Source: Asterochloris sp. CNOR1
Taxonomy: Eukaryota > Chlorophyta > Trebouxiophyceae > Trebouxiales > Trebouxiaceae
NCBI GenBank assembly: GCA_963969365.1
Contig: OZ017763.1
Span: 1,054,001 to 1,118,000, forward strand
DNA length: 64,000 nt
Reading direction: 5' to 3'
Shown: positions 1 through 64,000 of the stretch, in pieces
Numbering within the stretch: the stretch's first letter is position 1
Layout of the letters: each line of letters opens with the position of its first letter
The notes under the pieces: model-generated
What the model was told of the DNA's origin: nothing
The model's database searches: none
Seen by the model: the letters and a program-made list of their open reading frames with translations, nothing else
Program-made: the position numbers and the translations under genes

Positions 1-814
1 CGCTGCACTGCATGCCTTGCGCCTAACGGCAATGTGGTGTGGCCATGGTGCAGCCTGTCATGCCAGGCACGTTGTCAAGTCATGCAGTCACCTGCCCCAC
101 CTGGCTGGTGTGCATCTCCATAGTTGCACCGACCCGGGGTGCAGGGTATCAGAGGGTGAAGCTGTCCCAGTGCACAAAGTCGGGTGCTGCTCCGAGGTCC
201 AAGAGTGGTGGCTCCTGCCTACAGGCGCACAGAAGCCCGACATAGGCCGCACGCTGCCGCCCTGCACCGAGCTGGTAGCTGTTGTTCATCTGAGCCTCAA
301 GTCACGGTGTCTTTTCCAGGCACACCAGAGCCTGCCAACATGACCCCCTGGCTGTCGTTTGACGACCAGTGTCCGGTTGTAGCCTCAGCACAACTGGTTT
401 GACCCAAAGTGCAGGGCCTCCAGGGGCCTGAGAGGATGGGGCCCCCGCTGCTGCCCTGCATTGAGGTGGTGCAACTATATGTGTGAGACCTGACTCACAA
501 TGCAGGCGCACTGGGGCCTGTGCATGTGGACCACACTCCCCGCCCTGCCTGCCATTTCACGCCAGTGTCAACCGCAGTCCCAGCATGTCTCTGCATTGAC
601 CAGGTGTGCAGGCAGGCCTTCAGAAGGGTTTAAAAGAGGGCAACATGCTGCGCACCAGCCTTGCACCAGGCTGGTTGCTGTCGTCTGTCTGAGCCCTGAC
701 TCACACTCTTTGGTGTGCAGGCGCCAAGGAGCCTGGGATGGGCTGCGCGCGACCGCTCTACACAGAGCTGCTCGCTTCTGTTTGTCTGAGCCCTCACTCA
801 AACTGCCTGTGCAG
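1..814 (+). repeat. degenerate repeats of an intron-end/exon-start segment
   Basis: No exon is supported here. The stretch holds several decayed copies of one segment whose best copy is the acceptor at 811-850: a 'ctgagcc..cactca' tract, then CAG, then a 'gcgcacaggagcctgcc' block, then 'gccgcacgctgcc'. Related copies lie near 217-260, 290-345, 490-545 and 690-740. This is probably the intron upstream of the exon that begins at 815, enlarged by local duplication. The short ORFs here are by-products of the repeat. Confidence 0.5.
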
Positions 815-3800
815 GCGCACAGGAGCCTGCCAGGATGAGCCGCACGCTGCCCCTGCTGCGCCGCACTGCTACCAGGCACCAGTCTGCCAAGCCCCTGGGA
901 GGCAGACGCTCGTCAGTGACTTTCGCCCCTCAGGACGCTTTTACAGAGGCTCTTGAATCTGAGGTGCCTGGGCCTGTGCTTGTGCCTGCCTCTGCAGCGG
1001 CTCAGCCACAGCAAGGGCAGGCACAGCAGCAGCACCTACCGAACAGCCGGGGCCCCTTTCAGGGGAGCCAGCAGCAAGGGGCAGCCAGTCTTCAGCAGCC
1101 TGCCCAGCAAGTCCTGCAGTGTCCAGAGCCTGGAGGCGTTGCAGGTGCAGCAGGTGGTCAGGGCCAGCAAGCAGCAGCCCTTGGCGCGTGTTCCAGCACT
1201 GAGGCAGCACTTGTGAAGGAGAGCGGTGCCAAAGGCCAGCGGCAGGGCGCTGACGGGGTGCAGGTGGCGGCTGTGCAGGCAGACAGCGCAGCAGCGTTGC
1301 CAATGTCGCTCAGCGAGGAGTCAACGGGTGCACAGCTGCAAGCTGTGCCACCCAGCAGGGCAGAGCCGTCGACGCTGCTCAGCGAGGGGTTTGTGGGGGC
1401 AGAGGCTGGGAAACAGCAGGGGCCACTGGATGCAAGCACCGCTGGCTGCGGGGGCAAGAACCTGCCATTGGTGGCCGGTGTGCCCCCTGCTGCATCTGCG
1501 CCTGAGCAGCAGTCTCAGGCACATGACCAGGGGCCGGGGGAGCAAGCCGCTGGCCCTGAGGAGCCAGCCCTGCAGCAGACCCCTGAGGGGCATCTGGAGC
1601 CAGAGCTGTCAGGTGACGTGGTGTTGTAGGACTTTGGCTGCTTGTGCTGCGCACATGGGCCGTCCCCGGGCGGTTATGCCCTTTAACAAATGTCGGAGTC
1701 AGAGCTGTCAAGTGATCTTGCTGCAGATCGCATGCTGTACGTGCTCTGCATCAGTCATGCTGCAGGCTTGGACTGCTGCTGCGCCTGCACCAGATGTCAA
1801 CACCCTGCCCAGCGTGCCCACTCAACTGGCTGAGGTTCCAGAAGGCTGCATGTGCCGTACACAAGATGTCAGTCAGCTGCTGAATGTCGTCCAGCCTCCA
1901 TCTGCATGACTTTGTTATGCCCCTGTGCTCAAGCTGCTACACAGTACTGCACCAAGCCTCTTGCTGGCTGGCCCACCCCTCTCCAATGTGACCTTGATTG
2001 CATTGGGCTGAGAAAAGGTTCGCACCATTGCAATCAAGCCCAGTCAGCACGACCCCATGTCAGTCACCCAACTTGTCTTCGTGGGCATGCATCATGTTGA
2101 CAGCCACTTGTGACCTCTGTGAGCTGCATTCTGGCGGGTTCTCTTGGCCCTGACTGGCGGGTGCTCACCTTGACAAGACCCATCTCAGGGGCGTGACATA
2201 CTTGGTACCACGGTTCCTCGGAAGTTGCTGGCGCCGTACCAGCAGCTTGTCAGTCTGCTCACCTCACCTGCTTGACATAGAATGCCTTGCAGTGCATCGT
2301 GCTGGCATCTGGCCCATGCTACTGCAGGCAACGACCTGGCAGGCTTCTTGGCTGACTTTGAGACAGCATAGTTTGTGAGCGCCTTGCAGTGGCCTGACCT
2401 GTCGGATTCGGCAGCCATTCTGCGGACGGCTGTTTTGGCTGCTGCAGACCCCACCTGGCAATCCTCTTGAGCCTGACTTGGGGGCGCTGACTCAAGGGTT
2501 CCTGCCAGCGATATGACATTTGGCCTCAGCTTGCGCCATGCCTACTGCTGGTTGTGTATGCTGCAGGCAGCATCCTGGCAGGCTCTCTGAGCCTCACTTT
2601 GGCACAGCGCGTGCAGAGTGCAGGGCTGCCTCAGATGGGCAGCTGCGACTTCAGTGAGGGGGCAGCTTATGGTGGTGCAGCATTCTGCAGGTGGACCGAT
2701 GCCCCTCACAGGCGCAGGTAGGTGCCTTGGAATTGGGCTGGTGGAGCTTGCTGGCAATGCACCGTGAAGCTGCAGCAAGGCGCTTCCTTGACTGCCCAAC
2801 ATTGCATGTGGGTGCTTCGGGTTCCACTGCCGGCAGGGTTTGCATGCCATGCACTAAGCAGCTGCTGGTTCAGTGCACAAATTCACGAGGGGTCCTAATA
2901 CAGGCAGGTGGCTGCTGTGAAGCAGATGCTGGCAGGGCTTGCTGGCCATGAATGGCACTGTGCTGATTGCACCTCTGCTGCCAGTCCTTAGCTCGGCACC
3001 TTGGCGCCTCCTCTCATCTGTTGTAAGGCTGCTCTTCCACGAGCAGTGCACCGCAGACTCCCTCACTGCTGCAGGGGGGCGGCAGAGCAGCACCAGCGTA
3101 CTGCTGACACCTGTCAGTATGTTTAGCCCGGGGGGACCAACAAGCATTACCAGCCTTAGACAGGGCTGACAGTGCACTGCTGAACCCCTCAAACTGCTGC
3201 AGACAGCTACCGGCGTCAGAACGCAATGGCTCTGGCCTCTCACAGGAGGGCTCTGGCAGTCCACGGGTGAGCCCCACCTTGTCCACCCAGCACTCCACCC
3301 TGGCTCGCCACGGGTCCACCCTGGCTTCGGAGCAGTCCAGTCACTCCACCCTGGCTCGCCATAAGTCCACTCTGGCTTCGGAGCAGTCCCTCCTGGCGCG
3401 GCATGGCTCTACTGTGATCCGTGAGCAATCTGGCCTGGCTCGACATGGCTCTACGTTGATCCCTGAGCAGTCTGGCCTGGCTCGTCTCGGCAGTGTGGCA
3501 GCTGAGGGCTGGGACGGGCGAGCCCATGCAGGCAGGGAGGGCGGTGGTGCCAGGAGGAATTGTCGCGCCAGTACCTCGCTGGAAGACAAGGAGGAGCAGG
3601 GTGACAGGTGGGCACACCCGCTGCAATTCAGTGGAGCATCATGACAGCCTAGGGAAGCTCATGCGCAGGTGCTAGGCGCTGTGAGCACAGGCAGCAGGGC
3701 AGGCAGCCGGTGGGTGGCAGGCCATTCAGCAGCTGCAGGGGCAGCCCCACCAGGGGAGGCCGTGCTTTGTTCCTGGAAGTGCGAGGCACACATCCCTTCC

Positions 3801-5356: not shown

Positions 5357-8300
5357 ATGGCAGATGAAGAGGACCCCTGGGACCAGCTGAGTGACATCTG
5401 CCAGCTCTCAGACTCTGACCTTCGTGGTGGGGCGCACGTTGAGGAGGCAGCTGCCAGCACTGCTCAGTCCGGCGTCTCAACCGCTGGGCACGCGGAGTGG
5501 GAGAGCAGGCTAGGCTCGGGGCCGGCCTCCAGCCTTGCGGACGGAGAGGGCAGTCAGCTTGACGCGGACGGCACCTCAGATGACCAGCCCTCAGCACAGG
5601 ACAAAAAGCCTAGGTGAGGGGCTGCTGCACACAAGGTCTGACAGGTAATGCACAGCGCAGGCTCAGGCAGGGCGCAAGTCCAGGCTGTTGGAGCCAGTGG
5701 CGCTCATGCAGCACCATGCCAGGAGCCTGCCTGCAGCAAAGGTGGCCGCAGCACGTGCGGGAGCACAGGCAAACTCTTTTGTCGTGACAGTGTCTGGCTG
5801 CGCAGTGAGAGGCAGGAGCAGCAGAGATGCTGTATCTCAGAACACGCAGAAGGGACGGCATCGCAGCAATTTAGGCCAGCTAGGCACCAGCAGCTGGTCA
5901 AAGCAGTACGGAATCGTGTGGGAAGCTCTGCTTCCCAGCGGGATCCTATGCATCCTGCTGCTGTCTTCTTGGGTGGCTCTAGTGTGTGCCTTTAAAGCAC
6001 AGCTTGGCAGTAGTCATAAAGTGTGACACCATGTCAGGGTGCCATGACGTGACACAGGGAACATTGCCATTGCTGACAAACTCTGGCCTACCCTCAGGGT
6101 AGGTGCCAGCAATTCAAGCATTCAGGACTCTCCCCTTGGTTTCTCCTGCTTTGAAGCTGCTGCTGTGTGCAGGGCTTACACTGTGTTAAGAGCAGAGAAT
6201 CACTGCAACCCTTCCCCCTGTGTAGGGGCCTCCTGTTCACTGAAAAGCGGTGTGCTGGCACAGTCAGCATGACCCAGGGGATAGATATGTCGCATGTGTG
6301 CATAACCTGGCAGGACCCTCTACTGCCGCTTCGCAGCACGCCCAGAGACCAATCCATCCTTGCCCTACCGTCAGCAGCTGCCTGCTGCAGAGCAAAGGAC
6401 TCCAAATGGTTGCTCATGTGATGGCGCCGCAAAGTCAACAGCACGCTGCCTGCCGCCCCCCACTCTTGTCTACGTTTTGCTGCAGCCCGTAAACTTGCAT
6501 GTGGCATTACCTCCATTAGCAGCTTGGTCACACCAACATCATCCACTCATGCTGCTGCAGATCGAAGGACTCCAAAAGGTTGCGCATGTCACGGCGCCGC
6601 GAAATCAATAACAATGCCCAGCGCCGCTTCCGGCAGCGTCAGAGGGACCGGCTGCAAACTCTGGAAGACAAGCTGGCGGATGCAAACAGGCGGATGGAGG
6701 GCATGAAGCTGGAGAAGGAACACTTAGAGACCCACCTTCAGAGACTCGGCGAGACTCAGGTGGGTGTTGAAGGGACTCACGGTTTTGCGAACACTACGGC
6801 CTGGGCGGTGGTTACTGGCAGCCTGCAAGATTACTTGCCCGCGGATGGTGGACGCAGAGCTGCAGCTGGCCACTTCAGCCACCCACAGGTACCCACTCTC
6901 AGAGACCCAGGTGGGCTGTCAAGGAGCTGCTGACCTATGAGCTGCAGGACTGCAGTGTGCCTACATCATACTGTATAGTCGGTCACAGCGTGGCCTGGGT
7001 GTAGGACATCGGCAGGCTGCAAGCATACGGCCGGCTGTGTTGCTCTAGCTTGGCTCCTGTGAGTTGCTGCGGCTGGCTGTAGCAAACTGCATGCCTGAAC
7101 GACCAAGCAAGTTCTGGGCAGCTGGTGGGCAGGCAGCTGTTCCAGCTCCAGAGAGTCGCACTCCTGGTGCTTTGCAAAGGATCATTGCCCAAGCGCTGCT
7201 GTCCCCTGCTGACAGACCCCTGTCATGCATCCTGGCCAACATACTGCTGTGTCCTGCTGACATCATGCTTCCCGCCGTGCCCTGCAGAAGTCAGCGGATA
7301 CCCTGCTGGCTGGCCCTTCAGACCCTGCGCTCAGCCTTGCAGGGGACATTCAGATGACCTTCAACCTGGACCAGCCCAGAATGATGACCGTGAACGACAT
7401 GAAATTTCTGACAGTACCAACCTGGGCAAAAGTTTGGAAGGTGAGCTGTATGGGGCTGCATGCTGTTGCTGCACATTTTACCAAAGGGGCTGTGAGGGCC
7501 TTCAGCATCACTGGCAGGTTGCATGAATTCTGGTTTTCATTCCTGTGCAGCAGGCCTGCCATGCTGCCCCGCTTGCAGCGTGGGCTGTGCAGAGCTTCTG
7601 CAGAGGCGCTTGCCTGCTGCACAGGAGGCTCCATATCTCAGCTGCACATCATGAGCCTTCAGAGACCTCGCGCAGCGGCGTGCCTGTTGCACATGAGCCT
7701 GCCCCATATCCCAGCTGCACATCATGAGCCTTTGCAGTCCTTGCTGACAGCCCTGACCGTCACAGCTGCCTCGTGAATGGCCTGACAGGTGCCTGGCAGA
7801 GCTGTGCCCATGCAGAGCAACCATGCCCTGCGTTGACTGCTTATGTGCTGTCCTTCTGCCCCTGCAGGAATATGTAAACGCCTTAGCGGGGTGCATGGCA
7901 GAAATGCCCCCGGGCGTGCAGACCACCCCCCGCATGGAGCAGCTGCTGAAGGAGGCCAACAGCCTCATTGCAGGGCTGGTGCATGTGAACCCCCGCACGC
8001 TGCGGGAGTGGCACGTGTTGACAAACATGGAAAGCCAGGAGGAAGGCTTTGATGGGCCAAGCAAGGAGACACTGGAGGCTGTTGTGGTAAGGGCTGGGCT
8101 TGCTGCCCTGCCAGCAGGTCCTGGCCAGCAGCAGGGACATATGTTGTTCAGAGGGGCTGCAAACGATGTCCCATGAAACGACTGTCTGAGAAAAGAAGGA
8201 TGCAGTGCCGTTCTGGCCTCGGAGCCAGAGTGCAGAGCAACTTCTGGACGGCATGTCAGCCGCATTCTGATGGCTTGGTGGGTACCCACATTTCCTGAGT

Positions 8301-11142: not shown

Positions 11143-14100
11143 ATGGCAGTAGTGCTGCAGCTGGTGTTGGCTGGGCTTGCTCTTCTGGCAGGCCGCATCT
11201 TGTTCAAGAGGCTCAAGGCCAGAAGCAGCTTTGACCTTCATCGCATCCCTGGTCCTCCTGGTCTACCAATTGTTGGCAACATGTTCCAAGTCCTGGGCCA
11301 GAAAGTCCTCAGCTGGCACACCGTAAGATTGACTCAGCTGTGCTCCAAGATGTGCACATCCGCCTGTGAGCTGCAGTTGCAAACTTGTGCCGCATCTTTT
11401 GAGCCTAGCACTCAGCCAAGGCTTACAACAGCTGTTACACGTGCATGAGCACCTCCTCAGCGTAGGAACTACAAAGCACCATCAATAGTAATATTGCAGC
11501 ACGTCCTAATCTAACTCTGCGCTGCTGACTGCAGCTCTACGTTGCCTGGATGGAAAAGTATGGGCCAGTCTTTGTGTGGTACCTTGGACCCAAAGCTGTG
11601 GTGGTCCTCACAGATCCTGAAGAGTGGCACGCGCTGCTCAGCGGCAGCAACACCAGCCCCTTGCCCAAGTGGGCCAAGCTGTATGCAGTCAGCGAGTCGG
11701 TGAGCACTTGGGGCAAGAAAGGTGCTGCGTCTGTGTCGACATGGCTTCTCCTTTTGCCAACACCAGCCCATCACGCAAGTCTGCTAAGCTATGCACAGTC
11801 AGGGTGAGCACGCTAGTAGTGCGTGATTGTTTGACAAGTAGCCCCTTTTGCCACCACCAGGCCCTGCTGTGAGCAGTCAGCAAGTGGGTGAGCTGCACTG
11901 CTGTCAAAGACCCTGGACACCCTGCAATTATGCTCCAGGTTGCAGGGCAGGTGTGCCGGTTGGGTCTCCCCATATCTGTGAGTGCCTACTGGTGCAGCCA
12001 CCTGCGATGCTGCAAGTGCACACCCAGGCAGCCTCAGGTGAACGCCTGCAGCGCAGTGCACACCTGGCACACTTTCCTGGCGGCCTGCAGCCGCAGCTGC
12101 AGAAGCCTGCCTGTTGAGGCGGCATCCACATGGCTGCTGCAGAGAGCTCCCAAGCACTACAGCATCCTGACGACACCTGACCCTGAGGAGTGGCGTCGCG
12201 TCAGGAAGACCATCAGTGAGGCCTTCAGCCCAGCAGCCATCCGCAAGGTAAGGGGGCGTAGGTGAGGAGTCTTCAAGTGATATCACAGCCATAAATACAG
12301 CAGACAGACCCTGAGTGCACTTTCCAACAGTGTAGAGAAGGAGGCAGCAGCCATCAGGGCAGTAGCCAACTGCAGGACGAGGGCCTGCTTCCACTGGCAG
12401 TGCAAAGGCTCCATGCAGGACAGCAACAGAATATCGCAAGGTGCGAGGCTGCTGGTCATGGCGGTGTGGATGTTCCTTGTGGGACTGATCCTTGCAAGCA
12501 GGCCGATCTTGACAGGGGATCAGGGTTTAGGGTTTGACAGCCCTGCAGCCTTACATGAGGTGGCGACCGGCCAGTTGGCGTGTCTTTGAGCTGCCCACGG
12601 TCCCTGCATGAGGTGGCTGTGCTTCACTGTAGTTGGCACCCTGTGCTGCGCCTCCACAGTCAGCCCCTTGTGCTGCATGGCTGCCCCTGCTTCACAGGGG
12701 CGTGGCTGCTCTGCGCGAGGCGTCAGCGGCACTGCTGCTGTGGCGTACTGGCCGCAGGGAACACCCAGCACTTGCTTGCATGCTGCATCAGAGTGCACAC
12801 ATCCCCTGTGGCAAGATAGAGCTGTTGCATGAACACTTCGTATTCAGGTGTGCTGCAGTTTGAGCGAAGCAGATGACACAGTGCAAGGGTCCTGATATAT
12901 TTACTGCAGACTCCACTTGATTAATGTCTTGGTGGGTCACAGTAAGGCCTGCTGGAAAAGATCTGCATACTTCAGACATACACATGCTGCGCCTGCAGGC
13001 GTGGCCCATTGTTCTGGCCAAGGCACAAAAGGCGGCGGCCGCCGTGCACAAGGTCTCAGCCGGGACAGGCGTTGTTGATGTGGACACAACTGCTGCACGC
13101 CTGACTGCGGGTGAGCATTGCCTCTGGGTCAGCCTCTGCTACCTGCAATTTAGCCAACCACGGCAGTGCTTTGGGCTGTCCCTCGCACCTGAGAACTGCC
13201 TGCAGGAGATATGCTCAGAATGGCCCCTATTGTGTGAGAGCTGGTATGCTGCATGGGGTTGGTGTTGACTGAGACTGCCTTCTAGAGACATCCTCACTAG
13301 TTGGACATGTCCTGTGTGAGCTGAAACATTGCATGAGGGTGGCAGCGACCCGCAGCAGGTGTTGCTCACCTGCAGCTTGGCAGCCTTTGTTCTGAGCTGG
13401 AGCCTTGTACAAGATCAACATCAACATTCCCTGCTGGGAGGTTCTGAGGTTGGCAGCCACACCTTCATTCTGAACATGACAAGATTGACCTCAACATTGC
13501 CTGCTGCAGATGTTCTCAGCCTGGCAGCCTTTGACTTTGAGCTGGGCGCCCTGGACCTGGAGGAGAGTCCTGATGGCAGCTGTGCCTTCAAGCCCAATGC
13601 CTACCTGAGGGTGCGTTGACTGATTGCTGAGACGTCTGGGGGCCCCACCTGCAGGAGGATGCTGTGCCATGCTTACTGCGTGCCTGGTGGATTTGTCCAA
13701 TCTACCACCTCTGATCTAGCAGACGGCACATTCCAAGTTTTGCGTCCGAGCTCTGTTCACGGCCAGTGCCTGGCTGGTCCATTTGCTGTATACTTTGGAA
13801 ACGTCTGACCGCCTCTTGCCAACTTGTCGGGATGCTGTGCCAGATTGGTACGGGGGAAAGTAGGTCCTGCGCTATGCCCTGGTTTGAAACACTTCAGTCA
13901 GTCTAGTGCACGCAAGGCAAGCTTGCCGTAGGTGTTTAATGTGACTGGCCATGGCAGCACTTGACTCAAGCTCGGATTCTTCACAACTGCATGTACCGCA
14001 GGTGCTGTGGGCCGCACTGTCAACATCAGAGCGGGCAAGTGGGCTTGAACAGGTGGTCATCAGACTGATGGACCATGTGAAGTGCCGTCCGTAGAGTCTG

Positions 14101-26973: not shown

Positions 26974-29900
26974 ATGGAGGACCAACCTGACAGTCCCTTT
27001 GCGGGTCTGGGCCCCCTGCACTACCTGGATGAGGACTTTGGGTTCCTACCACTGTTTCCTGATCAACCCGAGCAGGAGATGCTGGAGCCCAAGCCTAGCA
27101 GTGCACCTGGAGCCCTGGAGTTCCCCATCAACAGGGGCCTGCCCCTGCAGCATGCAGCCTCAGCTGCTGCCCTGACAGAAGGCATGGGCCTAGGCCTGGG
27201 CCTGGACCCTGGGCCGGCTGGCAGCAGCAGCTCCCCTCAGGGCAGTGACCTTGCAGAGAGCCCCACGGCAGCTGAGGCCAGGGCTGAGGTGACCAGCGGC
27301 AGCCCACCCTCGCAGGCTGGCAGGGTGCGCGGTCGCAGGGGGGGCCAGAGAGGGGCCAGGTCGCGGCCTGCCAGTGCCAAGGGCCGGGCGCTGCGCCGCA
27401 GGTGTGCACAGCACGGAGTGGGGGCGCCTGGCTGATCTGCAGATGCGCTGCACGCCTATTCGAGCATCAGAGCGCTGCCTGCACAGCATGCTTGTGCAGC
27501 TTCTGCCTCCCCAGTCTGGTTCAGGCTCAGCCCTGCATGCCTGCACAGGCAGCAGAGCAATGCCTGGCCAGCAGTATTGAGCCGCATCTGCCTTTTGTAT
27601 CAGGTGTAGCAGCAGCTGCCCTTCTTGTCCACTGCCTGTAGATGTTTGAGCAGCAGGTGCCGTGTGTCTGCCTTGTGGGCGGTCATGGCCTCACATCACA
27701 TCACATCACTGCATCCTCATGATCACATTGCCCTCTCACTGTACCCGTGCTCACACCATAGTTATTGTTGCAGTGCAGTACTTCATGACGTGGACTGCTC
27801 CAGGTCTAACCTCATGCCTTAGCTCTCAGCTGTGTTCCCTCCTCTTGTGCAGGGAGACCAACTCCACAGCCCAGCGCCGGTTCCGGGAGAGGCAAAAGGT
27901 GCTGCTGTGTTTGGCTGTGTGTTTCCTCTGCAAGCACAGCTCAGCAACCTGCCCTTCTTGCTTGTGCCGTGCACTGCCTTGCACTTTGCACATGTCCCAA
28001 GGGTAAGTGCGTGTGCACCCGCACCTGATACGCTTTATTGTCTGCTGCAGTACCTGCCACCGGTGCACTGTCACTGTCGCAACACAGTGCCTGCAGAGCA
28101 TGGGTCTGCCACCGGCAAGCTTTGCAGTGCCAGTTGCAGAGTGCCTGACTGCTGCAGTGCCTCAGATATGCCTTGGCTCTTAGTGTACAGTTATGGTTGT
28201 CAACGTTGGCACCTGACTGCTTCAATGCCTCCAACTGCCGCAGGAGAGGCAGCGCGAGATGGTGTCAGATCTAACCACAGCTCAGATGCCCCCTTGGTCA
28301 TCTATGCCTGGCTGCTGTGTTGCAGGAGAAACAAACGAAGATGGTCTCAGATCTGGAGGTGGCTCAGAAGATGGTGGCAGATCTTCAGGCTGCCAACCAG
28401 ATCCTGGAAGCCAGGATCACGCAGATGGAGGAGCCTTATGGAGCAGTAATGGGTCAGGTGGGCTGCTGGCTTGTGCCAGGCCAACACGTACGCCTTGCGT
28501 CACAACCTCGTGAGACTGCCTCATGGAGCAGTGATGAGTCAGGAGAGCATGCACTGCGGCTGGCTGGAGCCTCTCTTGGTGGCTGCCGTAATGCCCTGAA
28601 AGCATCAGCAGACCATGCTGGACCTCATCAGCAGCGGTGCCAGACAGGACGAGATGACGTCCACCATGCATCTGTAAGAGTGGTTCCCCAGCTTTGTGGC
28701 CACAGGCGCTGGACAGGTCTCGCTCCATGCCTGCAGGGGGCGCCCCTGACAACGCCGGCTGGGTCCAGCAGCGCAGCAGGTCAGCTGGGGGGCGCATTCA
28801 TCACCACCACGCTGGATGAGCTGAATCCCCAGCTGCTCTCCATACAAGCTGTGAGGGATATGAGCGCTGCTGAGTGCGGCAGCATCTGGAAGGTGAGGGT
28901 CTTGGGGAACATGGAAGGCCTGAGACTCCACCAGGGCCTGGGCTGATACTCAGGGGGATCAGTAAGGCATGACACATGCAGTAGCTGAGATGGCATCTGA
29001 GCAACTGAGCTGGCCCCTGAGCAAAGACAGGCCTGACCTTCCGTCCGTCATATGTGTGGGTGCTTTTGGTGTGATGCGGCAGCTTGCCGGCAAGTTATGT
29101 GAACATTGCCACAGCACGCTGGGCGTCCCCATATCAAAAGCTGCCTGGGGTCTCACCCACGTGGTGGCTCACGCTGCTCCTTTATCTGCTGCAGCGCTAC
29201 GTGCAGCAGGTGCAGGAGTGCCTGGCGGCGGTGCCAGAAACATCAGCCACAGTGGAACGGATGGGACAGCTGCTCCAGGTCAGGCTCGTGTGCTGCAGCT
29301 GGCACACAACGAATGGCCGCTGCTGCTGCTGCTGGCTGTGAATGCCTCAGGCCAGCAGTGATGGTCACCTTGGGGTCTTGCGCACTCCTTATGCAGGCTC
29401 TACACACCAACAAAGGACAGCTAGTCACACAAGGGCTTCAGCACTGTTGCAGGTGTTGGGCTTTGGGCATGGTGGCAGGTGTGATTGCTGGCTTGCACTC
29501 TGCCAAAGGCACCACCGTGATGTCTTCAGACCTGCACAGGACATGCGAGCATGCGTGCATGCTCCGCGTTCGATGGCAGCCTGCATCTGGAGTACCATCA
29601 GCACCTTTTCGTTGTTGGCTGCTGCACCCCACAGAGCTGGCCTGTTGCTATCAATCACAGAGCAGACCCCATCCCGCAGCAAGCAGGGAGAGATGTATTT
29701 GGATGGTTTTGCTAAACTGAAGACTGCTGGCAGGCAGGCACTTATGCCGCAAGCAGTCAGCTTGCATATCCAAGTCTGCTTGGGTCAACAACTTGCAGGA
29801 GGCCTGCAGCTGCTGGCGGCCTCCCATTGCGCAGCGCATTCTGTCGTAGCACTCAGACTATACCAGTCCATGACAATCTGTGATCTTCTGCCATGCCCTG

Positions 29901-47680: not shown

Positions 47681-50600
47681 TCATACGAGCTCTTGGTCAC
47701 CAGCACTGGGTGCTGCTTCCTGGCTGCCTTGCCTGCCTGCCTGCCACTTCTCCAGCAGCATTTCCAAGCTGACAGCCTTGCTGAGCTGCTTCCGCATGAT
47801 GACCCTGCATGAGAAGCACAGCCACCAGATGAGGGACGAAGCAACGTCACTTCATGCTGCACTGTTCACAAATACTCACCTGCCGGCAGCCGCAACGTCT
47901 AGCTCAGCTTGGCACTCTGCCAGCAGAGCCTTATGTGCTGGGCTGCTTGGCCAGTTGCTGGCATCTTGTAGAGGGCTGTCACTGAAACCTGCAGCGCAAG
48001 GCAGCCCTTGAGGGGCTTGCGCCTTTGGCACCCAGCTCACTCTGAGCACAGAATGGACGGCAGGCTGCTGGCAATGTTGCACTAGGCGTCGGTGGCAGCA
48101 GGCCAATATCTCTCACGTGGCTGTCTGAATGAGGCGGGCGGGGCAGTCTGAGACAACTTTGAGGACCAGGCGGTGCCATTCTCGTCCCGCCAGTCCCTGC
48201 TGTGGCTTACAGCTGTGGTCCAGGGCTGCTGCTGCTGTGGCACATGTGCTGCTCCGGCAGAGGTGTGGCTGGGTCCAAAACGAGAGCGTCTAGCAGTGAA
48301 GCCTGGGCGAGAAAATCGCCTGAAGTGTGAGGGGCAACAGAGTTTTCTCAACAGGGGAAGGCTTGGAACTGGCTTCCATCCCTTGCAGCTGGCCTTTGCA
48401 CCAGGGAGGTCATGCAGTGATTCGGCACCAGGAGCACCAGAGGGCCAGACTTGCTACTCTCAGACAGCTTTGCCCCGTCATGCACAGGGGCAACGTGCAG
48501 CAGCTTTCGCCATATCCCAAAATTTCAATCCTTCAAAACCCTGTAACAGCCATTCAGGGAACGTCGGCTGCTTGCTGCAGTGGATGCGGATTGTCAGCCC
48601 TTCAAAGATCACAGCAGCAAGCCCTACTCACTGGGACAACCACGCAGGGCTCAAGGGCTGCTCATCAGGAGCAGGCCGCCCCAGAGTGTGCGACCGGCCA
48701 CCAGCAGCAGCGGAACCCGTGTGCGTTCGCTGATGCTGGTGGGGGTGGTGGCCGCCACCCCTAACTGCTGGTGCGGTGGGCGGCACCACCCAATAGCTAA
48801 GGGGCAGTCCATCCAGCCTGAGGTCGTGAGCTGCAGGTGCCTGTGTGCTGGGAGCTGCTGCTGCTTCGCCCATGGTCCGCACAGCTGCAAGTGCCTGTGT
48901 GCTGGGAGCTGCTGCTGCTTTGCCCACAGTCCGAGCAGCAGCAGCTGCCTGCAGCATGTGAGCGTATTTGCTTCAGTATGCCAGAGCCTGCAGGTGCCTC
49001 TGCGGTGAGAGTTTCTGCTGCCACTGTGCCACAGAGGCCCACCCCCCGCCACCCCAAGGTTGTGGAGTTCAGAGGGGCAGCCGAACTCAATGCAGGTGTG
49101 GGGTCAAACAAACATCAGTGCACTTGTAGAAGTCGCATACCCACTGCTGCACACATTGTTGCTGCACAGGGAGGCTTTTGGCTGCACTGCATTGCATGTG
49201 GTGGCAGACTCAAGCTTGCAGCAGGCTTCTCATTGCAGCCAGGCACATGTCTTCATCAGGTCGCTCTGGTGTGGGCTCATGCAAGCAGGTGTGTGGGGAC
49301 GAGCTGCGGGGACGAGCTGCAGCGCACGCAGGGACAGCGTGCACCCAGACTGCAGAGCAGAGCTCCGACAAACAGCCAGAACAAAGCCCCTGAGTGAGAG
49401 AGGGCATGGCCATCACTTGCAGTCAGAGGATGACAATGCTTTGCCCCTGTGCAGCAGCCAGCCACACTGCTGCCCAGAAGGCCACTATGAATGAAGAGCA
49501 GCCTTGCCATGGCGATAGGAGCAGGCTCATGCTGGCGCAGGCCCCTCACCGCGCGTGCAGCCTGCTTGGCGTCTTGTGACCTCCGCATCTGCGCCTCAAC
49601 CTTCTGCAAGCTGTGCTCCAGTCGGGCCAGCTGCTGACCCAGCAAGATCTGGACGCCAGCAGACATCTGACCGCTGCCTGCACAATAGGGGCAGTCCTGC
49701 TTGATGGCTACCCTGGCAAGCAGGCAAACTCATGCTTGGAAAGGCTGCCGACTTGCTACGTCACGGTGTCTCATTGACCCCTGGTGGTCCCACAGGCATC
49801 TCAATAGCAGACGACAAGTGCACACGCAAGGTACCTGACCACCTCCCACTGGTGAGACCTGCCCTCCATGCAGCAGCCACAGCTGCTTGGTGGCTGGCCA
49901 AGGCACTGACTGCCTTGAGCGCTTTGCTGTCGAACATGGCAGACGCACGACGTCAGATCACTGCAACTCACCTTCCACCGGTGCCGTCTGGCCACTGCCA
50001 AGGGGACCCACAGCTGCCTGAGGGCTGGCCCAGGCAGCAACTGACTGCAGTCCCTTGCCATCAGACAGTGCAGTGCCCTGCATATCACCATGCTTGCGGC
50101 CCCGGGCCATCAGCAGCTTCATTGTCTGCTGCATGGAGTCCGACAAGCTGGTCACCAATTGCAGCTGGCTGGGCACAGCTGGCACGTTCACTGAGCTAAG
50201 GTTGGGTGGAGTGTCTGGCAGGCCCTGGGTTGCAGCCTGCACAGCCTGTGGCCCGGGTGGTCTGCCAGCCTCTGCAAAGGCAATGGCTGCCAGCTGCTGA
50301 GCCTCTACTGCCTCCTTGGCGGCAGCAGCGGCAGCCTCATGTAGCTGGGCTGCCTGTGCAGAGTCGCCCTGGGCCGCTGCCCTGGCTGCCTGCTCCTGCA
50401 GCTGGGCAGCCTGGGCAGTGGCAGCAGAAGCCTCTGCATCCTTGGCCTGCAGAGGGTTCAAGTGACAGCCTCAGCAGGCAAAGGACTTGAACAGATCCCG
50501 ATGTGCCACAGCTCAAGTGCTGGGGGGGACGTCAACGTTGCTTGCTGGATGCGATGTGTGGAGGGTGGGTAGTAGCTGTCCAGCAATCTCAATCAGTTTG

Positions 50601-53600
50601 CTAAGGTGCCACCCATCTGGCTGCCGTCCTTGCCTCAAGACAGCATTGCGCTGACATTACAGGCGTGTGCCAGCGCTCAGCTGCTATAATGAAGGACAAA
50701 GGTGGCAGGCTAGGGAAGCATCAACGCTGCTATCAGACCTGAAGACACATGCCAGAATGCGTGGCCCAACACTGGCAACAATGCCAAAACATACAGGCAT
50801 GCTCGGCACAGCCGATGAACCAAAGCTGGAACAGACACCATCGAGCACCCACCTGTCTATCATCCTGCCTGACAGCAGAGTGCCTCAGTCACTGACCATC
50901 TCACCTCTGCAAGGAGCAGCAGGCGCTCCTGATCTGTCTCTGCAGCAGCCAGCCGCGCCAGCAGGGATGCCTCGCCCTGGTCTGCTTCGGCCTGGCCTGC
51001 TGCAGCCGCGGGCGCTCCAGGTGGGGCTGCGCCCTGCTGCACAAGACGCAGCCCCTCTGCTGCGGTCTCCGCTTGTGCTGCCTGGGCCGTGAGCACCTTG
51101 ACCTGATGCAGCTGCACGCACAGGGGTGGACATGCGAGTTCAGGCAGTGCGTGACTCCTGGACCAGACACTGAGGACAGCGTGGGCAGCATGAACAAGAC
51201 TGTGTGGCCTAGATGCCGTCTGTCGTGGCCTGTCATCCAGCACTGCAGGACACATCCTCTCAGCAGCAGCCCCTCTGACTCTGCTGCTGTCCAGCCAGTT
51301 TCATCCAGCCCACCTTCTCGTCAGCGCTGGCGCTGGCCACCTCAGCTGCCCCTACTGCATGGTACAGCTGCAGCTGCAGGCTGGAGGTGGCCGCCTCAGT
51401 GACATTGCTGGGAGCCCCATGGCTGAGGAGGTCCTCTGTGGAGCGGCGCATCTGCCACGCCAGCTGCTCAGCCTGCAGGGCAGTGCGAATGAGGTTTTGG
51501 CCTTGGGGTCTGCTTAGTTCAAAAATAGCTTATGCTGTCAGGCCATGCCAGCTGCTCAGCCTGCAGGGCGGTGCCCATGAGCCTTAAGGACGTTGCTCGG
51601 CGCAGGACGAGACCAGCTTGAGGTGAAGTGTGCACAGCCAGCTGTGAGCCTGCAGGGCAGTACAGGTGAAGTTTGAAGTTCAGCTGTTGCGCTCTGCTGA
51701 CCCTTCATGCTAAAGGCAGCTTGAAAAGCTGCACAGCTTGTTGTTACTGGGCTGCGCCACCTAGTGAACCTGCAAGGCAGGGCATGGGAAAAGGGAGGGC
51801 CGCTGAGTCGCAGGCCCATTTGCAAGGCAAGCTGATGCAACCTGAGCAGGCCCAACAAGCACTGCCTTTGATTGCTGTTGCTGACGCACATCATGGCAAA
51901 GAGCACATCCTGCTGGCGACACCTGCTGTTTGAGTTAACCAAGGGGGCCATGTAGCTCAGTGAAAGCATGGTCCCATCGCTATGCATGTCGTGCAGGCAT
52001 GCAGGTGTTACAATAGGCCCAAAGTGGGCTGCGCCAAGAGCATCTTGTTCATGTGCAGCACTATCTGCAGGGTGGTCTTTAGGCATAGCCTTGTCTGGGC
52101 AGCTGATGGTTGGGGCCTGGCTGCGAGGTGCACATTTCAACTCAATCTGCAGTGCCAAAAGCTTCCCTGCAGATGCAAGAGGCCTGACTTGCCTGCAGAG
52201 CCTGGGTTTCAGCTGTGGCCAGGGCCTCCTGTGCCTCCTCCCCTGTCGTGCCAGCACGGGAGCGCAGAGTCGATGCCAGGGTGGTCATAGCCTCAGTCTG
52301 TGTGGCAGCAGATGGGCAGCATGTAGCTTGACATGATGAAAATAAGCAGGTGTCACGAGATGCAAAGAGACCATAATTCATGTAGCCACATGCACATCCT
52401 TTGTTGCTCAGCTTGCTGCGCTGGTCACTGAGCTGTGTACACAGCCTGTATGCAAGGGGATGCCTGTACCATGCCTTTCATGCTCAGCTTGCATTTCATG
52501 TGTCCAGAAAGGTTGCTTACCTGCTGAGCATGGCTCTCATGCTGCAGCTGCAGAACTTTGGCCTCTACATGAGTCAGCTGGGTCTGCAGCTCAGCTGCAT
52601 GTTCGGCGCAGGAAGCAGCTTGAGCTTGCGCATTCTCAGCCTGCTCAGCCACCTGCAGAGTGCATAGAGGCGCAGTCATGGAAGAGGTAGCACGTGCCTG
52701 AGCACTCAAGCAAGACATTCCTGCATGCTTCAGTAAGCTATGGCGCACACCACTCACATCAAGACAGGGAAGCATGCAGGCTGGCAGGAAGTGCATGGCC
52801 TCTGCTGAGTACCTGGGAGGTGCTAATGCTATTCTTCTTGGAAGAATTTCAAAATTTTAACAAGCTGGTAGAGTGGCAACTGATCTCTGACACTCCGCAA
52901 GAAAAGGACTGAAAGTCATGCCTTGCTCACCTGTGCCTGCCAAGACTGCCACAAGGTGGCAGTGGCCTGCAGCTCTTGAGCATCCTGACCAGCAGCTGCC
53001 ACCTCCTCTGCGCGTGCTCTGGCAGCATGGGCTTTGGCCAGCACCTCAGATGCCTCCTCAGCCAGCACAACAGCAGCCTGCTGGGCAATCTCTGTCCGCA
53101 TGGCTGCCTCTGCTGCCTGCTGGCGCAGCACAGCTGCCTGGGACTGAGCAGCCACAAGGGCAGCTGCCTGGGGCTCGATCTTTACCTGCTGCAGCACCTC
53201 TGCTTGCATCTGCAGGGCACAGAGGGGCAGCAGAATTGCCATAGGAGGCTGAGGCATGCACAGTGCAGGGTGCCACTGCAGGCAGAGTGTCTCCAGTCAC
53301 AACATGGAAGACCTGATGCTGCGCTGTACGCTTCGTGGAAGCAGCTGCCCCTCCACGACATCTCAGTGGCAGTGCTGTCAGGTGACTGCCATGTGCACAC
53401 CTCTGGATCACTGCTGCCACACAGGCTGCAGTTAAAAACTGGGTGCCCAGCTCATGCTGCTGGCAAGCACATGCACACAAACCTCGCTGAATGAGTCTGG
53501 GGCTCACACCTGATTGGCAGCACTGCCTGCAGCTCTTGCTGCCCCAGCTGCAGCGTCGGCTGCTTGCCTGGCGGCCTTGGCTTGCGAGACCAGCTGCAGG

Positions 53601-56600
53601 TGGTGCTGGTGGGCAGCTGTTACGGCCCTTTCCAGCTCCTGCTGCTGCTCACTGGTGTACATCTGCAGCAAACCAGCACATGTGTCATAATAGTGTAGTA
53701 GACAGGCCATCCGGGAAGTGGGCAGTTGTGGCAGCCTCTGCTGGCTACCTCTGCTGCTCACTAGTATACATCTGCAGCTGCCAACATGTCAATGCCTTGC
53801 ATTAATTAAGGCAATTTATGGTGAGCGGCAGGCTCTGCAGGCTGCCTCTGCTGCTCACTCGTTGATATCTGCAACACTTCAGCACTTCTCCCATTGCTCA
53901 GTCTCACATATCGCTTCTAGCGGTGAACCTGAGGTAAGGTCCAAGTCTCTGGAGCGCAATACCCATGTTGCAGCAGCCACTAAAGGGACTGACAGAGCAG
54001 GTAGTAGTGCACACTGCAGCCCCCACCTCCACATTCTCCACAGCTGCTGCAGCAGCAGCTGCTGCCTGTGCCGCAGCCTCCTTGGCTGCAGCCTCTGTGG
54101 CAGCAGCCTCTGCCTCGTCAGCCTGCTCGATGGCAATGCCGGCTGCCACAGCAGCTGCTGAGCTGCGCAGGCGCCAGGGGGCGCTGAGCTGCTTCAAACT
54201 GGTGAATGGCTGCAGAGGGAACATGCCGCCGCTGACCTGCATCGTCAGCAACTTTGGGTTGACTCTAGCCATTGCAGCGGAGATGTCACAGGCCAATGTC
54301 CTCTGGCAGGAGGAACATGAATGCATGGTGCACAAGCTGATCACCCCTCCTCACCACACACGGGCAACGTGCAACTTGGGCTCCAGGATGCAGCAATGTT
54401 GTGCAGCAGCCAGCCGGGTGTCACATGAAAGTCATTTGGCTCTCAAGGACACGTGCAGCTGATGTGCCAGATGTCTGCAGCTAGGCTTGCCTTTCCAGCG
54501 CGCCTCTCTGCCAGGGTGGCCTGCAGGGTGGCATCCTCTGCGTCCTTGAGTGCTGTCAGGGCATCCCCCTGAGCTGCCTCAGCAGCAGCCTCGGCACGCT
54601 GCAGCTGTCTCTCCCAGCAAGCCATGGCTGCCAGCATGCGCTCCCTGTGAAGTGGACCACTGCCCTGCTGTGCCTGCAGCAGAAGCCCTGGGAATTCACC
54701 TCTGCAACTCCTGGTACCGGCAGGCTGTGGCTGATAGCAAGTACTCTGGGTGAAGCAGTCCATTGTTTGCAGCTCCCAGAGAGCAGAATGCAAGAGTCCA
54801 TGTGTCAGCAGCAGCTGCCAGCTTTGCAGCCCTAGGGATGTGCATACGCATGGGCACAGGCAGACCTGCTGATCAATGCAGCCATTTGCTTTTCGCAGCA
54901 TGTGCATGCATGCCTGTCCCTCTCCTTGCAGGCAGCATTTTCCTTCATGCAAGCAGTGTTTCCCTTGTGGGGCCAAAGCAGGGGCAGCTTGACTGCATAT
55001 AAGGGGAAAGCCTCACCCCCTGTGCAGCACGTTCATTGTGCAGATTGGCCTGCCGCCTTGCCTCCTCCGCAGCCGCCGTCTTGGCATGTGCTGCAGCCTG
55101 AGCTGCCAGGGCCTTTCTGGTGGCATCTGCTGCCTTCCGCCGCCGCTGAGTGGCTGCGGCAATTGCCAGCACTGACTTGCGCAGCTGCTGTTTTTCACCA
55201 TCAGGATCCTCCGTCTGACGCGTCACAATCACTGCAGACACAGTGGGCACTTATTTGACAGAGTGTATGTGCAGTGTCAGATGAGTGACGATCCACTGAG
55301 GCTTGACTCAATTTCCCAGAATGCTTGAGCACCTTGCTCAACAACAGCACTCGTCTATGACACTCTGCCTGCATTGATCGGGAGGGCTGAAAGGATCTGC
55401 AAAGCTGCTGTGGCATGTGTGCTAGGTCACGTGTCATTTAACCTATCAGCAGCTCACCTGGAGGAGTGAATTTCTTCTGACACAGGACCTGCAGACCCGC
55501 TGTGATGCGCGCAGCTCGTTCTGAAGCATGCTTTGCCTCAAACTCCAGCTTGGCAGACAAGCTGAGCAGCCTGCATGAAGATGAAGATCCTCATGTGCTG
55601 GAAATGCCTGGATGCATGCTGCGAGCAAAGCACTCCCAGCAGCCACATGCGGGTAATGCTGCTTCTATCTGCTGACTTTACGCACTGAACTGCACTTGTC
55701 TGGCAAGCCAGGGGTGCCGCTTGGTGGGCAATGTCAACACCTTGCATTTGCAAAGAGCAAAATCAAGCACGTCAGCTCAATTGGCTGGAACTTGCAGCTG
55801 AGCTTGGTGTGCAGCCAAAGCAGCCATTCAGTGTCTGAACAGATCTCCAGTGATGCAGACTGGTAATCTCCAATGTGCGCTGTGACCTGTGGACATGACT
55901 TTTGCCTTGACCCAGAGTGGTACCTTTTCCTCAGCAGCAAAAGCATTAGCAGGCTGCCCTTGCAGGGTCTTGACTCCATGCACAAGGCTGTGGAAGCCAG
56001 ATCTGGAAGGCAGTGCTCGCCTTTCTGCCTCATTGCTGGCCTCCCGTGCCGCCCTGTGAGCCTGCTTGGCCTCAAATCCAGTGGCGCGTGCCCTTACTTG
56101 CTGGCCCTCCTGCAGAAGCAGTTGATTGCATGCGCTGATTCCACGCCCGCATGGCAAAAGCCCAAATCTCTGGTAATGCATTCAGCGGGCACCTCACTGA
56201 TGCTTAAGTGCAGCTGGCATCAATGATCGGGAAAAAAAACATTGCCGACGCTGCACAGGCAGCTGCATCCTCTAAAGCAGCCTGTGCGCAGCTGGAAGCC
56301 AACACCAGATACCAGCACAAAGCCAGACACAAAACACACTTACCGATGCAGCAGAGGTAGCCGCGTCCTCTGCCGCTGCAGCCTTCAGCAACAGGCTGGC
56401 AGCCTCAGTCTCCTTTGCCTGGCCCTGCTTAGCAGCATCAGCAGCCTGCAGCACAGCAGAGCCATGGCTTGTGGTGACAGCATGGAGTTGCTTTGGTGGC
56501 AGGTGCCTGGCTGTAGCAGCCAGCAGCCAGTGCATGACCTGCATGCATGGCGGCCATGTCTGAGACTGGAAGCACAATCTTGCAGCTGCTGACTGCTGCT

Positions 56601-59600: not shown

Positions 59601-62600
59601 GGCGGGCCTCCCCAGCTGCCTCCATCAGGGGCAGCAGCTCCTCAAACATTTCCTCCACAGTCTGCAGGAGCTCCACCTCCCTGTCGGCGGCTGCAGCCTC
59701 CATGTTGAGCTGGGCAGCCAGCATCTCCTCCTCCACAGCCCTGCACAGCAGCACGGCGAGTGCTGATCAGTGGCTTGACTTGCACCATAAATTGGCTAAG
59801 GTAGTAGGCCAGCTATGTGTTCTGGTGGGCTGCCTTTCCTGAGCTTTGAGGTATGGGGGTGGTGATGATCGAGGGTCCAAAATGCTGGAGCGACTGCAAA
59901 CAGGTGCTAGAGGCAGACACCCAGCAGGGCTCCCTCCAGCAGCAGCCCATCAGAAGAGCTTTCATAGGCACTTGATATTGGAGTGATGTCATCTGTGGCT
60001 TCCCATGTGTTTGCAAGACCTCTACAGCCTGACTGCCTGAGCCCACCGTTTCTTGGCAGCTTCAATGTTGGCCTGTGTGGCTGTGCACTTGCGCTGCCAC
60101 TCCTCAGCAGCCGTCTTGCACTCTGCAGCCCTCTGTGCGGTCTGGGGGCCAGGCAAGCGAGCCTCATTCTCATATGCATACACCTGCTGCTGGGCCTGCA
60201 GGCAGCGTGATGGCAAATCTTTGCTACGGCTGCGATGCTCCTGTTTGTATGCATGCACATGCTGCTGGGCCTGCCCACAGCATCAGCAAGAGCCAGATTG
60301 GCACTGAATGCTGCCCTCTCGCAGGCCCTCTTCTAGAGACCTGCAGCTTCAAAAAGCATCAGCCAGGCCTGTGGAAGCTGCCCTGCTTGGTGGCCTACTG
60401 TGGGGCTGGCAAGCGGCGTGATGCACTTGACTGCTGGCGCCACACAAGCTTGCACACATCGTGGCAGAAGAGTCTGTTGGTGATCCCGTTGCACATCCAA
60501 ACGGAGATAGGCCAGATAGCAGGGCCACAACCCTGTGCAGCTCAAGGGGGCCTTCCGCCTTGAAGGCACACACCAAGAGCTTTGCCGCAGCATACCTGCC
60601 TAGCAGCCCATCATGAGCATTTCTACAGCAGACTGGCCCATCAGTTGGGCCAAGATGCACCGGCGCAACACTGTGCAAGCAGCGTCGGGATGCATGTTGA
60701 GGGGACATACCTCTTCAGCCTGCAGGATCTGACTCTCCGCCACTACCTGAGCTTTTGCAGCAGCATTGGTAGCCCTGGCAGCAGCTGCCCTCAACTCCAT
60801 GGCTGCCTTGTCGGCTGCATCCCGCAGCTGCACTGTACGCCCTCTGCAGCAGGAGAGGCAACTCATGCTTTGCAGTCCTGGATGCTCGCAAAGTTCAAAC
60901 ACATCTTCTGAGCACAGGCAACAGCGGCCGCATATGCAGCCACCTGCAGCACCATTGGGAGTATGATCCCTCATATTGGCCACCCCAACATGCCAGTTTG
61001 TGCCCCTCAGATGGCAGCACTTGCAGCTTGTAAGCATCACAGTAGCTGACATCAGCTCTGTGGCGAGTGGTTGTGCGCACTTGCATTCAGGCAGGGTTGC
61101 AGAATCGGCTGCCTTGTTCAGACTCAGGCACAGCATGCACCTGGACACAGGAGCTCTGGAGGAGGCCACATCTGAGAGAAACATATCACTGCAGCTGCAT
61201 GGGCCTATAAATGGCTTGGTGTCCAGTCCTCACCGAGGGGGTCATGGCCAGAACCCCACAGCAGATGTTGAGCAGCCTGTGCACATATACAGGATTGCAA
61301 AGTTAGCTCTATGGCCTGACTTGGGAGTGATGGTCCCTCACAAATTACTTCGCTGGCATGCAACGCCTTCTGGCATTGCAGGAGCTCCATGCACTGACCT
61401 GGGGGTGGTGGCCTTGAAGGAGCCCATGACTGAGTTGGAGCGCTGCAGGCGTGAAGATGGTTCCAGATAGCCTGCTATGCTGCTGCTGTGAGTCAGGGAG
61501 TGACCATGGCTGAGTCCCACAGTCACACTGCCAGAGGGGCGGTCTTCATATGACGGCACCTTGGCCCGGCCTTCCTCTGTCGCCCCTAAGCATGGGACAC
61601 ATGGCACAGTCAGGCTTGCACCACGCTTGCAAGCACACCTCTCCCCTTCTATATGGCAGAGATGGGAGCCCCATGTACTGACTGATAACCACCTGTGCAT
61701 ATATCATGTGCAAGATAGATTGATCACAGTTGAGCAGCTGCAACGCATCATCAGCGACTGTGCAACAGCAGCCAAAAGCTGCAAAAGCTGGACAGACTGC
61801 CTGCACCTGGCTTTGAAGCCGTGCAGCGTTCACTAAGCTGTGCGTCAGATTCCTCTGGGTGCCCTGCTCACAGCAGCTGATCAGTTTGGCTCCCATCCAG
61901 CAGACGCCAGGCACCTGGCTGCTGTGCAGCGCTCCTGGCTGGCCAGGAATGCCCCCTGGGCAGATCGCTGAGCCTCCTGGACATCTTGACTGCCCAACGC
62001 TGCGCATGGGCAGCAGCAGCAATCATCACAGATGATGGCTGGGGCCTTGCATCATGCAAGATGTCGTTGTGGCTGCTCCTGATGGCTGATGGCAGCTTGG
62101 CAGGGTCCACCCACCTGGCTCCTGCTGCGGTGCAGACCCGGTTGGCGGCGGGCGGCCCTCCTGGGCAGCCCTTTCGGCCTCCTGAACCTCGGCCTCTTTC
62201 GCCTCAGCCTCAGTGATGGCGCGCTGGTATGCGCGCGACACCTTGCCCACCCTGCACAACACTGATGCCGATCTGCCCCAACTTGTCTCAGGTCTCCTGG
62301 GTCACACCACTTGCATCGGCTGTTGTCACCAGACTAGACAGCAAGCTCCCTGCCAAGCCGAAAGGTGGGCCTGAGTTTCCTGCAACTTCTGACAGCAACA
62401 CCTCTCTGGATGGCCACGTCACCTCTTAGTCCACTTGGCAGCAGCAATCCTGGCGTCCTCCGCACCGGCAATGTCCCCGCGCTGCTCGCACTGATCTGCC
62501 TCGCGGGCTGCCTTGTTGGCCTGCTGGTTGGCCAGCTTAGCCTCCTCCAGCCGCTTAGCAGCAGCCTCCCGTGCTCGCCTGCAGTTGTCAGCAGCCACCT

Positions 62601-63763: not shown

Positions 63764-64000
63764 CTGCAGCAGGGCAGCTGGAATTATCCTGGGCCTGGAT
63801 GGCCCACATCTTGGTCATGCAAAAGTACCCTTCTGCAGAGCAATAGCTGCGCCACATGAGCTCTGATGCCCCCTGTCACACATGGGTCATGCGCAAGGTG
63901 CGCTTGATCAGAGAACATTGTATAGCAGACAATGTCAGCATTTTTGTCAGCATCAAGTATGGCCCAACACCTGGGCTGCTGGTTACTCGGGGGCTGCCTG
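63764..64000. other. window end, unresolved
   Basis: The phase-1 start of the exon at 63763 requires an upstream exon. An in-frame Met exists at 63857, but no supported exon is visible in the last 237 bases, so the 5' end most likely lies beyond the window. Confidence 0.35.

Follow-up and report, generated by a model that had tools for sequence, protein, structure and literature searches.

Why some compact algal genomes carry long introns is an open question. Introner elements provide one route to abundant intron sequence in algae and are common to unrelated introns. Short duplications within genes were reportedly treated by Gao and Lynch in 2009 as internal gene duplication or tandem exon duplication, where whole exons or coding repeats stay in use. 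For the long introns of Chlamydomonas relatives, passages of PMC8226300 describe the selective advantage as unknown and the driving mechanism as probably ancient. Passages of PMC4974935 (2016) deal with a single locus, where a tandem duplication across an intron–exon boundary brings the splice signals along and gives a new intron and extra exon sequence. Direct repeats at exon–intron borders are the subject of Rogers and Bendich 2025 (PMC11782384), whose border passages compare the 5' with the 3' border and give repeats of 4-30 bp with a mean of 11.4. Here we analyze a 64-kb stretch of the Asterochloris sp. CNOR1 genome (C18:1054001-1118000, hereafter the window), part of a 56.4-Mb assembly in 21 contigs, in which exon edges are present as decayed copies inside the adjoining introns, a pattern that bears on the question of long introns. 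Asterochloris is a lichen photobiont.

Exon-edge copies within introns

Exon-edge copies are real and are found in all six blocks of our sample, which consists of the window and five further blocks of 40 kb each from this genome (264 kb in total, GC content about 58%). In the edge test, the 50 exonic bases adjoining an intron were aligned to that intron for 286 introns lying between confident exons (at least 60 bp, score >5) spaced 150-1500 bp, which gave 286 acceptor and 286 donor edges. At a score of at least 32, own-intron matches were obtained for 76/572 edges in 72/286 introns (40 acceptor and 36 donor edges). The controls were other introns, with 117 matches in 28,028 trials (58 and 59 of 14,014), the reverse complement, with 2/572 (1 and 1 of 286), and the distal edge of the same exons, with 6/442. 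The initial annotation of the window had held that the pattern would be only low-complexity sequence if own-intron matches were no commoner than matches to random exons; at 76/572 against 117/28,028 they are commoner. Lowering the score to at least 28 raised the own-intron matches to 110/572 edges (102/286 introns), compared with 661/28,028 for other introns, 18/572 for the reverse complement and 20/442 for distal edges. Matching introns at the higher score numbered 20/69 in the window and 8/39, 16/52, 10/42, 11/42 and 7/42 in the other blocks. The match rate grows with intron length, from 0.03 (33 introns of 150-225 bp) to 0.34 (76 introns of 600-1500 bp).

Exon–intron structure was taken from a gene hidden Markov model (HMM) self-trained on the 264 kb instead of on transcripts, its training being seeded with 27/28 exon segments chosen by eye. 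The trained HMM converged to 25.6% coding sequence with donors CAG/GTGAGC and acceptors TGCAG/G, and with start and stop terms it predicted 502 introns, those outside the 286 not being part of the count. Its errors include the fusion of adjacent genes, the wrong placement of certain edges (a P450 donor was put at 11668 and lies at 11700 by eye) and the calling of some decayed copies as tiny exons. Exons shorter than 60 bp were therefore counted as intron in the edge test, and 84/286 introns contain such predicted exons. The earlier intron sets omitted decoys labelled as tiny exons; with 45 exonic bases as the query they gave 27 and 23 matches in 235 own introns, as compared to 0 and 2 of 1,140 in other introns and 0/321 at far edges. 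When a similar query spanned the junction, matches were obtained in 39/235 and 39/235 cases and in 10/1140 and 7/1140 of the controls. GC donors are predicted for 49/502 introns, several in CAG/GCAAG-type contexts, and part of these may be HMM errors.

The full junction-spanning search recovered 153 copies at 96/572 edges in 88/286 introns, including 42 copies at 24 edges in 22/69 introns of the window; second and later copies were accepted at a score of at least 30 with no control of their own, so that the 153 include some chance matches. One copy was found at 59 edges, two at 22, three at 11, four at 3 and five at 1. The two to six copies per edge claimed by the initial annotation are thus correct when the real site is counted. 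For the spacing, which it gave as 50-130 bp, the median distance between successive copies is 108 bp (quartiles 88-149, 5-95% range 56-261). Its placement of acceptor copies upstream of the real acceptor and donor copies downstream of the real donor holds and follows from the intron-only search; all copies detected sit inside existing introns. The pattern, announced for at least six genes on both strands, is found on both strands in six HMM gene models, or seven genes by reading, as one model fuses two. The statement that nearly every intron is affected was too strong; by the edge test and the junction-spanning search, introns with decayed edge copies make up between about one quarter and one third of those examined.

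The same short-range duplication was seen in repeat scans that used no edges. Tiles of 60 bp were compared with the flanking 400 bp on both sides; the controls were four distant stretches per tile and, for the downstream flank only, its reverse complement. In every block, tiles scoring at least 42 made up 1.4-4.1% against near sequence and 0-0.15% against far sequence, with none inverted. Ungapped segments scoring at least 20 numbered 207 at offsets of 20-819 and 0 at offsets of 9000-9799, and the commonest repeat offsets were 60-180 bp. A blastn self-comparison of the window had too low a sensitivity for these copies.

The copies decay as noncoding DNA with a broken frame. Among the 76/79 copies realigned, mismatches fell on codon positions 1, 2 and 3 in 219/1006, 224/1014 and 269/1008 cases (0.218, 0.221 and 0.267), and only 4/79 exonic indels were multiples of three, the other 75 being off-frame. 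The substitution spectrum, with 314 transitions and 305 transversions, shows nothing striking. The homologous block has a median of about 60 bp around one edge (blocks that extend beyond the searched 60 intronic and 90 exonic bases are clipped), and the copy spans the splice junction in 69/79 cases.

Origin of the copies

We favour, with a probability of about 0.7, blind short tandem duplication on which splicing and reading frame acted as filters, with most of the events in a single old wave. Gene bodies would have been struck at any position by short head-to-tail duplications, commonly of 80-120 bp within an overall range of about 50-250 bp, and mainly during one past period. Within exons, mainly duplications with a length that is a multiple of three would have survived. 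Across a junction, the spliceosome would go on using the outermost donor or acceptor, and the inner copy with its exon part would turn into intron and decay; duplications wholly inside introns would all be tolerated. Introns would be lengthened and proteins left unchanged. Because the exon would hold one copy nearly still, exon–intron pairs would remain recognizable longer than intron–intron pairs, and the record would now be seen as decayed edges beside real edges. Slippage during replication or repair is our inference for how the duplications arose, as are the single wave of about 0.3 substitutions per site, the strictly tandem nature of most events and the splice site in use. A perfect and evidently fresh intronic 78-bp duplication (block C15, 37157-37317) ends in the 5-bp repeat TGACG.

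Repeats are found across exons, introns and their junctions. From 296 merged repeat pairs, 38 of low complexity were removed, and the remaining 258 comprised 75 intron–intron pairs (100.9 expected from random placement), 71 intron–junction pairs (38.9), 26 exon–exon pairs (17.6) and 6 intergenic pairs (18.8), with other classes filling the rest. All 12 pairs within single exons have offsets divisible by three (8 exons, so not all are independent), as compared to an even 90/73/69 over the three residues for pairs other than exon–exon. Tandem Repeats Finder (TRF) returned 82 rows, of which 34 are intronic, 27 exonic, 12 intergenic and 9 a mixture of exon and intron. The period is divisible by three in 20/27 exonic rows, and six exon–intron rows at 5 loci have periods of 52-149 in head-to-tail order. 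In the window, repeat scans including TRF detected in-frame tandem duplications within exons at 3287..3389 (+, period 51) and 48829..48951 (-, period 54). The initial annotation had proposed tandem duplication of exon edges with decay of all but one copy. Of this, tandem duplication that crosses splice junctions, followed by decay of the copy removed in splicing, is supported by these TRF arrays, by the tandem simulation at about 0.3 and by the noncoding decay. No event that specifically duplicates exon edges has to be assumed, as exons (in frame) and introns also contain repeats of similar size, and uniform old placement gives the edge peak described below.

The evidence favours a tandem origin but does not prove it copy by copy. 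In a first anchored test, intron-side homology was nearly absent, also among the 5 and 7 copies at 85% identity or higher. This is compatible with tandem origin, because simulated tandem events 0.3 old give an equally faint signal. The intron-side match per 10 bp was 0.71, 0.60, 0.59, 0.59, 0.59 and 0.60 for 87 observed edges (median identity 0.79), and the tandem simulation at t=.30, run through the same pipeline, gave 0.71, 0.61, 0.60, 0.59, 0.59 and 0.59 (median identity 0.79). The dispersed simulation of the same age gave 0.73, 0.58, 0.57, 0.56, 0.55 and 0.57, and the null lies at 0.56-0.59. The subset with at least 85% identity (n=19) agrees with the tandem simulation too. The TRF arrays that combine exon and intron at 5 loci (period at least 52) and the intron-side homology fit a tandem origin, although a visible tandem arrangement is lacking for some copies.

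In 187 introns the coverage by copies, as read off the profile, is about 5-6 times higher at exon edges than in the intron interior. Uniform tandem placement gave simulated edge-to-interior ratios of 2.1 (t=.25), 11.7 (t=.35) and 1.1 (ages uniform over 0-.6); the peak can arise without targeting because intron–intron pairs fade while the exon holds one copy still. The initial annotation had called the process recurrent; read as a steady, ongoing rate, this is rejected by the edge-match scores, with 3/76 at 60 or above where 39% are expected (Kolmogorov–Smirnov p 6e-12). Ten of the 76 edge matches still reach 90% identity, so that young or slow copies do exist, although in small number. A single old wave at about 0.3 substitutions per site is the reading to which the edge peak, the scores and the intron-side homology jointly point. 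From simulated detection rates, a rough hand estimate is two to three events per intron, which would be a large share of intron length.

Several observations weigh against blind tandem duplication in a single wave. Only 43/200 repeat pairs (7/36 at 85% identity or higher) align over at least 0.8 of their offset. A few copies have sharp limits and seem to be genuinely dispersed, for instance 26272-26331 against 26413-26474 in block C3 (60 bp, 92%, offset 141), with no homology in between by eye. Acceptor block lengths of 45/59.5/83 and scores of 47/51/61 fall between those of the tandem simulation at t=.35 (50/74/99 and 48/59/78) and the dispersed simulation at t=.30 (39/52/68 and 43/50/63). 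The scores fit t=.35-.40 and the identities t=.25-.30, and no single age fits both. Fourfold-site divergence of exons is 0.241, against simulated values of 0.238 (f=.25), 0.262 (f=.5) and 0.318 (f=1), which suggests that these exon sites have accumulated only about one quarter of the change seen in the copies and implies either strong synonymous constraint or faster-aged copies; codon selection may be partly responsible, since third-position GC (0.71) exceeds intron GC (0.57). Repeats occupy just 1.9% of the bases in predicted intergenic DNA and 8.5% in introns, in addition to the deficit of intergenic pairs, which is unlike a position-blind process, though the intergenic label, an HMM prediction, is weak. 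The gene models themselves are HMM predictions.

Non-tandem copies, fourfold sites and repeat-poor intergenic DNA leave some room for a junction-directed or error-prone copier, as they do not fit blind duplication. In such a scheme, which we regard as unlikely, pieces of about 60 bp around splice junctions would be copied into the adjacent intron, perhaps with errors from birth. The density of copies at exon edges, the scarcity of high-scoring copies, the low exon fourfold divergence relative to the copies and the sharp bounds of some non-tandem copies are all in its favour, and block length and score are matched about equally well by the dispersed and the tandem simulations. On the other hand, uniform tandem placement at one old age yields the edge peak, the faint intron-side homology is closer to the tandem simulation at t=.30 than to the dispersed one, and tandem arrays are present in introns as well as exons. 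Templated insertions are expected to give inverted copies, and these are not in excess (2/572). The stricter version, in which splice junctions are hotspots and an edge-directed, error-prone copier placed junction pieces that were born diverged, seems a little more doubtful still. If it were true, intron length and exon-edge decoys in this lineage would be products of that copier and not of blind tandem duplication.

That the copies are retained for a role in splicing regulation, as decoys or alternative sites, appears improbable to us. AG is kept in 55/83 acceptor copies and GT or GC in 48/70 donor copies, and 66/153 copies retain a site scoring no lower than the 10th percentile of the real ones (35/83 acceptor, 31/70 donor), a level reached by 8% and 9% of random intronic AG and GT. 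In realigned copies the acceptor AG matches in 55/63 cells, which exceeds the value of about 0.75 at positions -24 to -7. However, local alignment is biased toward matching sites, and AG is kept only like the adjoining consensus at -6 to -3 (about 0.85, shared consensus), better than intron further out. The donor GT matches in 52/71 cases, no better than its neighbours, and the exon parts decay evenly over codon positions with frame-shifting indels. It is possible, judging from the retained sites, that copies could supply alternative splice sites, and such dated, inherited decoys would let the choice of the spliceosome between near-identical sites be tested.

Old whole-exon duplications (mutually exclusive exons) or errors in exon calling are very improbable as a source. 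The HMM does label some copies as tiny exons and misplaces some edges, but the homologous block lies around one edge and the P450 alignment to CYP3A4 continues across a junction (16085/16604) whose copy is 16193-16243. Duplicated exons were rejected because the open frame is not kept, as shown by the off-frame indels and near-even codon-position mismatches. That low complexity or common intron motifs (TGCAG-rich acceptors, CTG runs) cause the matches is hardly credible, for although TGCAG acceptors are common to introns and the region is CTG/CAG rich by eye, the queries were exon-only and the own- versus other-intron, reverse-complement and distal-edge controls rule it out.

Copies and genes in the window

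The window holds seven HMM gene models. A Pfam search of four of them detected P450, Fe superoxide dismutase, B3 and WDR55, spread over three models; a fifth model gave a sub-threshold bZIP match only. Three related bZIP-like genes, with an RRRE-N-AQRRFR-RQ motif by eye and Pfam bZIP_1 only at E 0.036, lie inside the model 5357-17744 and at 19958-24518 and 26974-31608. The latter two have 9 exons each with edge copies at different edges, and their copies may for this reason be independent.

In the first bZIP-like gene, an acceptor and exon-start copy of exon 6561 lies at 6382..6438 (+, score 82, 86% identity, offset 170, AG kept). In the P450 gene (+), the donor edge of the exon ending at 11668 in the HMM has a copy at 11758..11790 (offset 110, GT kept), and the acceptor edge of exon 13510 has copies at 13425..13458, 13349..13410 and 13197..13244 (offsets 71, 151 and 301). 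The exon ending at 14348 is followed by three aligned donor-edge copies at 14426..14470 (86%, offset 117), 14563..14600 (84%, offset 245) and 14637..14675 (84%, offset 322), and that ending at 16085, the junction supported by the P450 alignment, by one at 16193..16243 (offset 157). In the second bZIP-like gene (+), the acceptor edge of exon 21712 recurs at 21615..21664 (90%, offset 83) and the donor edge of the exon ending at 21852 at 21925..21981 and 22035..22088 (offsets 119 and 237). The third (+) has acceptor-edge copies of exon 28326 at 28240..28272 (offset 82) and exon 29993 at 29794..29843 (offset 194), with a donor-edge copy of the exon ending at 28457 at 28518..28552 (offset 85).

On the minus strand, the B3-domain gene has an acceptor-edge copy of the exon starting at 37073 at 37283..37328 (offset 250) and four of the exon starting at 37856, at 37935..37988 (offset 127), 38016..38050 (91%, offset 208), 38090..38134 (offset 273) and 38192..38224 (offset 376). 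Donor-edge copies of the exon ending at 37708 lie at 37639..37685, 37582..37629 and 37483..37534 (-, offsets 56, 111 and 214). Further copies on this strand are an acceptor-edge copy of the exon starting at 38694 at 38729..38782 (offset 83), a donor-edge copy of the exon ending at 39661 at 39513..39540 (93%, offset 138, GT kept) and three acceptor-edge copies of the exon starting at 40781, all with AG kept, at 40852..40900, 40936..40994 and 41040..41091 (offsets 103, 204 and 303).

The WDR55-like gene (+) carries donor-edge copies, both with GT kept, of the exons ending at 43691 (43762..43814, offset 120) and 44456 (44508..44551, offset 90). Exon 45482 (+) has acceptor-edge copies at 45376..45416 (92%, offset 89), 45308..45335 (93%, offset 169, a tiny exon in the HMM) and 45126..45153 (93%, offset 348). 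The remaining copies are on the minus strand. The donor edge of the exon ending at 49972 is copied at 49840..49889 (offset 129) and that of the exon ending at 56344 at 56234..56273 (offset 98). For the exon starting at 51472, four acceptor-edge copies lie at 51542..51574 (94%, offset 88), 51633..51661 (96%, offset 177), 51755..51783 (offset 297) and 51794..51850 (offset 369), the first three aligned. Two aligned acceptor-edge copies of the exon starting at 53662 are at 53722..53778 and 53833..53883 (offsets 109 and 206), and one of the exon starting at 60195 is at 60232..60281 (offset 75).

Other features were noted. Direct repeats of longer range (offsets about 300-500) lie near the window start at 197-1829, and an intronic poly-C tract of 23 bases is at 58992-59014. 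Interstitial telomere-type repeats AGGGTTTAGGGTTT are located inside introns at 12522-12535 (+) and 37890-37903 (-), 2 found against 0 expected by shuffling, and are possible scars of break repair. The small contig C19 (43,319 bp) carries a 713-aa open frame with a nearly full-length protein kinase match, the best one obtained when the genome was searched.

Comparison with known systems

The pattern was not found reported among the matches listed from the titles and abstract openings of the open-access literature, and the intron and repeat passages of the Coccomyxa genome paper contain nothing similar. Like introner elements, the duplications are a source of much intron sequence, but introners are shared between unrelated introns and the edge queries here are not. 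Introners were rejected on the 117/28,028 matches to other introns, a test in which exon edges and not whole introns were the queries. With internal gene duplication and tandem exon duplication the present case shares short duplications within genes, but the copies here are partial and decay as noncoding DNA. As in the border passages of PMC11782384, direct repeats occur at exon–intron borders; here it is one and the same border that recurs inside its intron, up to five times, and the homologous blocks measure about 60 bp.

The introns analyzed here carry datable units with a built-in clock, in which the exon part is near-frozen and the copy is free, and intron growth is therefore measurable event by event. 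The closest likeness is to the locus treated in PMC4974935, where the duplication likewise crosses an intron–exon boundary together with its splice signals. In contrast to the new intron described there, existing introns here absorb the duplicate, no new intron position is shown, and between a quarter and a third of the tested introns retain traces of such copies. Intron growth by junction-spanning tandem duplication is in our view an abundant variant of the known tandem-duplication models and not a new kind of system.

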